Of a stretch of DNA of 64,000 bases, positions 1,518-4,488 are shown one piece after another. Where the stretch lies: NCBI RefSeq assembly GCF_004917065.1, contig NZ_SSYA01000001.1, positions 762,550 to 826,549 on the forward strand. The letters run 5' to 3'. Below the pieces are notes generated by a model. The model searched no databases. It had not been told where the DNA came from and saw only the letters and a program-made list of their open reading frames with translations. The stretch is from Geomonas ferrireducens (GTDB lineage: Bacteria > Desulfobacterota > Desulfuromonadia > Geobacterales > Geobacteraceae). Position 1 is the first letter of the stretch. The number at the start of each line of letters is the position of its first letter. The position numbers and the translations under genes were made by a program.

Positions 1518-1545
1518 GCACCCCAAAATTGAATAGAAAGACCTG

Positions 1546-1646
1546 CTTATCTAGAGTGGTGGAGGGAAAGGCCCTGCGAAGCCACAGCAACCGGCCCAAT
1601 CGGGCGACAGGTGCTAAATCCTGCCGAAAGGCGAAGATGAGAAAGG
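1546..1646 (+). promoter_or_regulatory. SAM-I (S-box) riboswitch aptamer
   Basis: The leader carries S-box consensus blocks in order: CTTATCTAGAGTGGTGGAGGG, a P2 region ending in AGCAACCGGC, AGGTGCTAAATCCTGC and GATGAGA. P1 is formed by 1546-1552 with 1635-1641. SAM binding should stabilise P1. An antiterminator is visible: TGAGAA (1638-1643, 3' strand of P1) is complementary to TTCTCA (1681-1686) in the loop of the downstream terminator. Low SAM therefore frees the P1 strand and permits transcription into metX, while high SAM terminates it. Confidence 0.92.
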
Positions 1647-2914: not shown

Positions 2915-4123
2915 CTACTGCCAGCCCATGATGGCGGCTACGTCCTCGTTGAGCACCATATCCTCGCCGCTCGGTATCGCGAACACCTTGACACCCGAGT
3001 CCTCCGCGCTGATCAGCATCTCCCGCTCGCCCTTGAGCGCTTCCTCGTCCTTTTTCAGGTCGACCTTGATGTCGAAGTGCTCCATCCCGCTCAGCGCCAT
3101 GCCGCGCACCGGCCAGTCCTCCCAATCCTCACCGTAGGTGAAGACGATGGCATCCGGCTTGCCGGTGACGGCGATGTAGGCCCCCAGGTACTTGCGCAGA
3201 CGGTAGGTCTCCATATCGAGGGCAAGCTGGCAACGGGCGTCGCCGACCACCGCCTCGTCCACGACGGTCCGGCGGCTCACGCGACGCCCTACGATGCCGG
3301 CGAGGCCGCTCTTCTGGTTCAGGAACAGGTCGAGCTCGGTCGCCGAGACCCCCGCCTCGTTCACCATGAACGGGATGATCCCGGCGTCGATGTCGCCGCA
3401 GCGGGTCCCCATCATGACACCCTCCAGCGGGGTAAGCCCCATGCTGGTGTCGACGGACGCACCGTTGCGCAGGGCACAAAGCGAGACGCCGTTGCCGGTG
3501 TGCACGGTGATCATGTTGCATTCCTCGAGCGGCTTGCCGATCAACTCCGCACCCCTCCGCGCCGCGTGCGAATGGGACTGCCCGTGGAAGCCGTAGCGCC
3601 TGATGCCGTGATTTTTGTACCACTCGTAGGGAAGCGGGTAGATGTAGGCCATCTCTGGCATGGTCTGATGGAAGGCGGTATCGAAGATGGCGACCTGGGG
3701 GACCCCCGGCAGGAGCGCCTGGGACGCGCGAATACCGGCCAGGTTCGGGTTGTTGTGCAGAGGCGCTAGGGTCGCCACCTCCTTGATGGCATCGACGACG
3801 TTTTCGTCGATGAGCACCGATTTGGTGAAGCGTTCGCCGCCGTGCACCACGCGGTGGCCGACTGCGGTAATTTGGGCGACATCGGAGATGACGCCATCTC
3901 TGTCGTTGGTAAGCGTGTTCAGGATCAACTGCAGCGCATCCTTGTGATCGGCGCACTCGCCGTCCAGGTGCCTCGGGTCCTGCCCCGGCACCCTGTGCGT
4001 CACGAAGGAGTCCCCGACCACGATCCGCTCCACCTTGCCGGTCGCCAGAAGGGCCTGCCTGTTCCAGTCGTAAAGTTGGTACTGTGCCGAGAACCTTCGG
4101 CAGTTCAGGGTGAGAATTAGCAT
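2915..4123 (-). CDS. Divergent acetate kinase family protein
   Basis: Full-length ASKHA acetate/propionate kinase fold, 402 residues, in one continuous frame. Kept family features: Asn7, the Arg of GHRVVHGGE, FDTAFHQTMP with the catalytic Asp, the His of RYGFHG, TGNGVS, and GVMMGTRCGDID with the second substrate Arg. Changed features: the phosphate-1 motif, normally N-A-G-S-S-S-L-K, reads NCRRFSAQ, so Ser10, Ser11 and Lys14 (Methanosarcina numbering) become Arg, Phe and Gln. The adenosine motif, normally FTAGIGEN, reads FTYGEDWEDW. No pta gene is adjacent. It may be an acetate/propionate kinase with a different phosphoryl donor, a kinase for another acid, or a regulatory paralogue. Confidence 0.85.
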   Translation of the reverse strand: MLILTLNCRRFSAQYQLYDWNRQALLATGKVERIVVGDSFVTHRVPGQDPRHLDGECADHKDALQLILNTLTNDRDGVISDVAQITAVGHRVVHGGERFTKSVLIDENVVDAIKEVATLAPLHNNPNLAGIRASQALLPGVPQVAIFDTAFHQTMPEMAYIYPLPYEWYKNHGIRRYGFHGQSHSHAARRGAELIGKPLEECNMITVHTGNGVSLCALRNGASVDTSMGLTPLEGVMMGTRCGDIDAGIIPFMVNEAGVSATELDLFLNQKSGLAGIVGRRVSRRTVVDEAVVGDARCQLALDMETYRLRKYLGAYIAVTGKPDAIVFTYGEDWEDWPVRGMALSGMEHFDIKVDLKKDEEALKGEREMLISAEDSGVKVFAIPSGEDMVLNEDVAAIMGWQ

Positions 4124-4488
4124 GCTGCCAAACTCCGATCCGGGCCTGCTGGATAAATTGAGCGGGACCCGCTGCTTTGTTGCGTATCTCAGGGTGGGTA
4201 CTGAAACGTCACCTACGATACGTGTGGAGAGTATGATCGGTTGGGGTCATCACAGGGTCTTCACGGACTATCGCACGGCGGAACGTCCATAAGTAGCACT
4301 ATCTGCGCGAAAGTGCAATTAGTAACGATGTCTTACAAACTTACGCGGCGCTCTTTCCGATGGGAAAATGACACTGGGCGAGTGGTTATTCGCCCTTGCA
4401 GGGCAAGGATCAGGTTCTTCCAAAAGCACGGGGAGAAAATGGCTTAAGCCGATGACAGCGGAGCATATTGAGTGAAGCGATGACGTGA
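4124..4488. other. Intergenic region without a supported gene
   Basis: This 365-bp gap lies between the start of the acetate-kinase homologue and the stop of the EEP gene, both on the minus strand. It is less GC-rich than its neighbours near 4290-4340 and must hold the kinase promoter, but I found no convincing -35/-10 pair. GGGCGA (4376-4381) and TCGCCC (4390-4395) form a small hairpin that could help end EEP transcription. Confidence 0.4.

Follow-up and report, generated by a model that had tools for sequence, protein, structure and literature searches.

The 64,000-nucleotide stretch of the Geomonas ferrireducens contig NZ_SSYA01000001.1 analysed here (positions 762,550 to 826,549; hereafter the window) carries ackA-2, a paralogue of the acetate kinase gene. 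We find that ackA-2 is a member of a larger, old paralogue group of the order Geobacterales, in which the nucleotide-binding loops are altered in differing ways and the acyl site is mostly kept. From its sequence, we consider the chances about even that AckA-2 binds an acyl phosphate or carboxylate, is no longer an efficient adenosine triphosphate (ATP)-dependent acetate kinase and has a regulatory or sensing role. The gene family itself is already known; the altered nucleotide loops appear to be the new part.

The ackA-2 gene reads as a single uninterrupted frame that begins with ATG and spans 402 codons. Its product scores 424.9 bits against the NCBIfam ackA model TIGR00016 (cut-off 293.4), and phmmer against solved acetate kinases gives a best E-value of 7.6e-124. 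Residues were numbered through alignments to the Methanosarcina thermophila enzyme (1tuu) and to AckA-1, the canonical acetate kinase of the same genome; the numbering of AckA-2 matches that of the M. thermophila protein at the N-terminus and at 309-340. The features of the gene, with residues placed by alignment, are as follows:

2915..4123, minus strand: ackA-2, acetate kinase paralogue, 402 amino acids (open frame, TIGR00016 and phmmer)
4082..4105, minus strand: PHOSPHATE1 loop, residues 7-14, NCRRFSAQ; G9R, S10R, S11F and K14Q
3851..3853, minus strand: Arg91, substrate residue, kept
3680..3682, minus strand: Asp148, catalytic, kept
3584..3586, minus strand: His180, catalytic, kept
3482..3502, minus strand: PHOSPHATE2 loop, residues 208-214, HTGNGVS; N211 kept, no additional residue
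3386..3412, minus strand: LOOP3 region, residues 238-246, MGTRCGDID; G239 and R241 kept
3269..3277, minus strand: LOOP4, residues 283-285; D283S, R285 kept
3101..3142, minus strand: ADENOSINE loop, residues 328-341, FTYGEDWEDWPVRG; A330Y, V332E, G333D and E334W, G331 kept
2963..2965, minus strand: Glu387 (Glu384 of M. thermophila AckA), kept
4133..4136, minus strand: GGAG, 9 nt 5' of the ATG, likely ribosome-binding site judging from the sequence

Two loops account for most of the differences from AckA-1 (G9R, S10R, S11F, K14Q, D283S, A330Y, V332E, G333D and E334W). The PHOSPHATE1 loop reads NCRRFSAQ (N7 C8 R9 R10 F11 S12 A13 Q14) where AckA-1 has NCGSSSVK, and the ADENOSINE loop reads FTYGEDWEDW (including F328, Y330, G331, W334 and W337) where AckA-1 has FTAGVGEMGA. 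The acyl-pocket and catalytic residues R91, V93, L122, H123, D148, F179, H180, H208, P232, R241 and E387 are all retained, as are N7, S12, N211, G239, R285 and G331. Canonical ATP acetate kinases, represented by the M. thermophila enzyme (1g99/1tuu) and AckA-1, thus share with AckA-2 the fold, the acyl pocket, the catalytic residues and N211, G239 and G331, but differ from it at G9, S10, S11 and K14 of PHOSPHATE1, at D283 of LOOP4 and at ADENOSINE positions 330 and 332-334. A preliminary description of the gene had proposed an intact acetate kinase paralogue in which the nucleotide loops are rebuilt but the residues for substrate and catalysis remain, and both alignments bear this out. The extent of the change needed correction: PHOSPHATE1 and ADENOSINE are indeed rebuilt, but N7, S12 and G331 survive within them, and D283 of LOOP4 is changed as well.

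N7, S10, S11, S12 and K14 are among fifteen hallmark residues that show high conservation across the acetate kinases of prokaryotes and eukaryotes (PMC4390882); AckA-2 keeps N7 and S12 of this PHOSPHATE1 set and has lost the other three. N211, G239 and G331, in PHOSPHATE2, LOOP3 and ADENOSINE, respectively, are all present despite the changes at 330 and 332-334. Changes at these three positions in M. thermophila AckA lower activity 6- to 200-fold (PMC4390882), and the G331Q-I332M pair lowers the turnover number (kcat) 50- to over 100-fold and confers no use of pyrophosphate (PPi), which was not gained either by five Escherichia coli acetate kinase variants cited in the same paper (PMC5517563). 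These loop-mutant activity figures apply to AckA-2 by analogy only, because N211, G239 and G331 are residues that it retains.

The rebuilt loops are a stable trait of a defined subgroup. A profile built from nine members was searched against the family (48 genomes) and the class (277 genomes), and the same 21 genomes scored above 750 bits in both searches, with a gap from 759 to 656 bits. The carriers comprise 18 of the 19 genomes in the genus group of the window (Geomonas and Citrifermentans records), one genome of group g5 (Geomesophilobacter) and two of the five in group g7, which includes Geotalea records; the nearest named records for the window's own genome are Geomonas edaphica (99%) and G. 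oryzae (97%), among the best 80 of 505 relatives. The ackA-2 frame is open in 21/21 genomes. Arg9 occurs in all 20 genomes that have both genes and is encoded by six different arginine codons, and Gln14, Trp334, Asp336 and Trp337 are each found in 20/20 genomes compared, while Glu335 is present in 15 of the 20 orthologues. N211 is kept in 19 of the 21 subgroup members (Asp in two) and G239 in all of them. Since this type recurs in 21 genomes and invariant residues such as Arg9 are encoded by differing codons, the altered loops are genuine. A sequencing error is ruled out as their cause, as is a frameshift, which the preliminary description had already discounted.

Selection on the gene was estimated from the ratio of nonsynonymous to synonymous substitution rates (dN/dS), using the same 172 genome pairs for both genes (190 pairs were computed, and 18 with a dS of zero, above 1.5 or undefined were dropped). 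The median dN/dS is 0.176 for ackA-2 versus 0.052 for AckA-1, with a median dN ratio of 3.6 and a median dS ratio of 1.15 between the two. The window-type AckA-2 is therefore under purifying selection, weaker than that on AckA-1, and the rebuilt loops are among its constrained parts.

We then placed this subgroup among second acetate kinase copies from genomes of the same order. The residue alignment holds 141 rows, namely 75 AckA-1 proteins, the 21 members of the subgroup and 43 other AckA-2 proteins, plus two far outgroup rows that are not counted. The sample does not hold every second copy (among those left out are G010:C279, G069:C122, G083:C159, G100:C319, G115:C89, G106:C73, G108:C166, G110:C481 and fragments in G063, G071 and G097), and the genomes are related, so that counts across them are not independent. 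The residues G9, S10, S11, K14, N211 and G239 are all canonical in 75/75 AckA-1 and in 0/64 AckA-2 proteins. The set R91, H123, D148, H180, H208, R241 and E387, by comparison, is complete in 75/75 AckA-1 and in 59/64 AckA-2 proteins, the five exceptions being L149, L135, L196, L201 and L202. Of the 64 AckA-2 proteins, 63 have Trp or Arg at position 9. Outside the window's subgroup, Trp mostly replaces Gly9 in PHOSPHATE1, often with His, Tyr or Asn in place of Ser11, and Asn211 of PHOSPHATE2 and Gly239 of LOOP3 are mostly replaced by Lys/Arg and Glu/Asp, respectively. The two replacements occur together in 28 of these 43 proteins. Because a hydrogen bond links residues 211 and 239 in M. thermophila AckA (PMC4390882), a salt bridge between the replacements across the phosphate site is plausible.

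The proteins were first assigned to AckA-1 or AckA-2 by reading the motifs, and the supporting trees hold 54 and 51 rows, fewer than the full 139. In the 54-row tree, built from all columns, a branch supported at 75/99 and present in 74% of bootstrap trees separates the 25 paralogues used from the other rows. In a quick 51-row tree that leaves out the loop columns, a branch with a Shimodaira-Hasegawa-like approximate likelihood ratio test (SH-aLRT) value of 99 sets the 19 AckA-1 rows apart from the 31 paralogue rows, which share their side with the single far outgroup row. The separation of AckA-1 from AckA-2 thus holds without the loop columns; because the outgroup is far, a single AckA-2 clade and a grade are indistinguishable. 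L148, L150, L181 and L199, second copies whose loops are canonical, group with AckA-1. A third, distant AckA type with a canonical PHOSPHATE1 loop and a GGIGEN ADENOSINE loop was seen at L144 (G050:C1:3081815) and L146 (G053:C60:43375).

The paralogue group probably includes the published Geobacter proteins GSU3448 and Gmet_0149, named AckA-2. This likeness is drawn through a nine-residue AckA-2 peptide implied by PMC4121341, which occurs exactly in L105, L151 and L136 (3 of the 43 other AckA-2 proteins) and in 0/75 AckA-1 proteins and 0/21 members of the window's subgroup. The accessible parts of the papers on these proteins (PMC2700814, PMC4121341) mention no altered nucleotide loops, and in the open-access literature on this paralogue and on pseudoenzyme or pseudokinase acetate kinases, supplements excluded, we found no description of such loop changes. 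A further genome with two AckA paralogues is that of Lactococcus lactis; unlike AckA-2, however, its AckA1 and AckA2 retain all but one of the nucleotide-binding residues and have been investigated as active isozymes (PMC3956926).

That PHOSPHATE1 and ADENOSINE residues are lost while the acyl site is retained makes ordinary ATP-dependent acetate kinase activity less likely. As the preliminary description had suggested looking for, a canonical ackA (AckA-1) lies elsewhere in the genome beside the phosphotransacetylase gene pta (TIGR00651, 373.1 bits; cut-off 311.2), and this pair covers the ordinary acetate kinase reaction. The acetate kinase activity of the Geobacter paralogue GSU3448 was insufficient for growth (PMC2700814), and mutations in these loops lower the activity of other acetate kinases (PMC4390882, PMC5517563). 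In the mechanism that we propose, the bulky loop residues would close or reshape the nucleotide site, costing AckA-2 efficient ATP-dependent acetate kinase activity; the protein would still bind acetate, acetyl phosphate or another acyl phosphate like it, and could thereby regulate or sense acetate and acyl-coenzyme A (CoA) metabolism, perhaps by pairing with the canonical AckA. The preliminary description had offered regulation as one of three possibilities, beside a different phosphoryl donor and a different acyl phosphate. A role for acetyl phosphate as a global signal has been suggested (PMC2700814).

Several observations weigh against this regulatory role. Retention of G331, N211, G239, N7 and S12 means that part of the nucleotide site is still there, and Arg9 and Arg10 could themselves hold phosphates. 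The catalytic residues, needless in a pure binding protein, are all intact in 21/21 subgroup members, and AckA-2 scores above the cut-off of the ackA family model. In addition, the structure model does not resolve the pocket. The AlphaFold2 prediction, made from 26 aligned sequences, has a mean predicted local distance difference test (pLDDT) score of 79.3, with residues 151-174, 229-251 and 269-272 below 50 and an average of 67 over the block 331-340; owing to these low values it is taken to confirm the fold, and no reading of the pocket is drawn from it. The top Foldseek matches of the model are all acetate or propionate kinases, and the best solved ones are the acetate kinases of M. thermophila, Treponema vincentii and Thermotoga maritima (template modelling (TM) scores of 0.85-0.90 by query length). 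Finally, neither a MarR-family nor a CoA-transferase gene, both of which accompany AckA-2 in sister families (see below), was found in the fetched flanks of 20 AckA-2 loci from the window's family, seven of them window-type.

The main rival to a regulatory role is weak or specialised ATP catalysis, in which AckA-2 would be a slow or specialised acyl kinase acting on propionate or another short acid, with Arg9 and Arg10 partly replacing the lost phosphate binding. This is a lesser but serious possibility, consistent with the intact catalytic residues, with N211, G239 and G331 and with the family model score, and a propionate kinase role has been floated for the Geobacter paralogue (PMC2700814). 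In M. thermophila AckA, Val93 restricts the length of the acyl group (PMC5517563). Ala takes its place in 29 of the 43 other AckA-2 proteins and in 3 of the 21 subgroup members; Val93 is, however, kept in the window's AckA-2, for which a widened pocket is therefore not predicted. Moreover, S10, S11 and K14, which are important for M. thermophila AckA activity (PMC4390882), are all lost. In G. sulfurreducens, GSU3448 was lower with propionate than with acetate, a result that lends a propionate kinase no support, though its authors leave that route open (PMC13274346). Butyrate kinase activity was considered separately and set aside: AckA-2 scores 51.4 and 64.9 bits against the Buk family models, below their cut-offs of 289.1 and 222, and the same genome also encodes a butyrate kinase gene.

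A kept acyl site and catalytic residues beside rebuilt nucleotide loops might also be expected of an acyl kinase whose phosphoryl donor or acceptor is not a nucleotide but either PPi and phosphate, as in Entamoeba, or polyphosphate, a proposal we regard as improbable. The preliminary description had drawn a parallel to the Entamoeba enzyme; set against the E. histolytica protein, it is weak. Both proteins have an altered ADENOSINE loop and a Glu at 335 (the position of E. coli Asn337), a residue proposed by Yoshioka et al. to be important for PPi use (cited in PMC5517563), yet only 15 of the 20 orthologues have it. Three of the four sequence hallmarks of the Entamoeba type, namely the PHOSPHATE2 loop extended by an additional Gly, Asp330 and a Gln (as in Entamoeba) or Asp at 331 (PMC5517563), are absent from AckA-2, which has HTGNGVS without insertion, Tyr330 and Gly331 and has, unlike the Entamoeba enzyme, lost PHOSPHATE1; as an Entamoeba-type PPi enzyme it is thus rejected. 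The fold match to the Entamoeba protein (TM 0.80) is also below those to the ATP enzymes. Still less probable is a hydrolase, in which the phosphoryl group of acetyl phosphate would pass to water for want of a nucleotide acceptor, lowering acetyl phosphate. The catalytic set, intact in most AckA-2 proteins beside altered loops, would suit such an activity, but it is purely inferred, and we know of no hydrolase in the acetate kinase family. Decay of a duplicate that has no present function is the least probable explanation. AckA-2 changes faster in protein sequence than AckA-1, catalytic residues are lost in L149, L135, L201 and L202, and L196 has an in-frame stop; the low dN/dS, the open frame in every subgroup genome and rebuilt loops that stay invariant over varying codons all speak against it.

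Among these divergent members, L149 (G055:C1:2459551-2460744) and L135 (G020:C1:3039590-3040783) are very degenerate AckA-2 proteins with open frames, the former lacking R241, D148 and H123 and the latter H208 and E387, and both are strong candidates for proteins that have lost catalysis but are nevertheless maintained. The AckA-2 frame at L196 (G092:C68) is broken by a single in-frame TAG, and neighbouring genomes have intact relatives.

The gene neighbourhoods of AckA-2 in the sister families f3 and f4 point toward an acetate or acyl-CoA pathway, evidence that concerns those families and not the window's AckA-2 directly. As the fetched upstream flanks vary (297 bp at L189), all neighbour counts are lower bounds. 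A MarR-family gene (PF01047/PF12802) lies upstream in 18 of the 30 f3/f4 loci, in 16 of them on the same strand as AckA-2 and in eight of these no more than about 155 bp away; one further locus has it downstream. CoA-transferase genes (PF02550/PF13336), which belong to the family of succinyl:acetate CoA-transferase, are found near AckA-2 in 5/30 loci, three on the same strand 38-226 bp upstream and two divergent within 800 bp. No MarR, CoA-transferase or glutamate synthase match was found within 6 kb of AckA-1 in 65 loci. At L177, L182 and L186 (G008, G070 and G119), the CoA-transferase and AckA-2 genes form apparent one-strand strings with 38-226 bp spacing, and a MarR gene is also near.

A broader proposal, which we put forward tentatively and consider rather doubtful, is that AckA-2 represents an order-wide pseudokinase family. 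Its ATP site would have been shut after an ancient duplication by at least two routes, in most lineages by Trp9 with Lys/Arg211 and Glu/Asp239 and in the window's subgroup by Arg9-Arg10-Phe11 with a Trp-rich ADENOSINE loop, and its acetyl-phosphate site kept under selection; the protein would now be an acetyl phosphate or acetate sensor working with MarR and acetate CoA-transferase in acetate-oxidising Geobacterales. Acetate is a main electron donor for Geobacter-like bacteria, and a conserved AckA relative with rewritten ATP loops and a kept acyl site would be a ready candidate for such a sensor there. The annotation "acetate kinase" assigned by the family model may misstate the activity of AckA-2.

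Other neighbours are confined to parts of the group. At L152, L066, L151 and L136, AckA-2 is directly preceded on the same strand by a gene resembling that of the glutamate synthase large subunit (about 1,500 amino acids); a glutamate synthase-like gene lies upstream in 4 of the 20 AckA-2 loci of the window's family. In genus group g6 (L137-L140), a gene for a GAF-domain, PtsP-like phosphoenolpyruvate-protein phosphotransferase lies 3' of AckA-2 on the same strand in 4/4 loci. Neither gene is widely shared, and both were set aside as common partners.

Within the window, ackA-2 stands alone: metX is convergent with it, the upstream Exo_endo_phos gene ends 365 bp away, and no operon partner was found there. 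A promoter scan for ackA-2 found none, and a terminator scan found 2 against 1.2 expected. No RNA element of ackA-2 itself was found, the sole match to Rfam that reaches the gathering score within the window being an S-adenosylmethionine (SAM) riboswitch (RF00162, 72.5 bits; positions 1544-1643, plus strand), which lies just 5' of metX (1660-2847) and represents ordinary methionine control.
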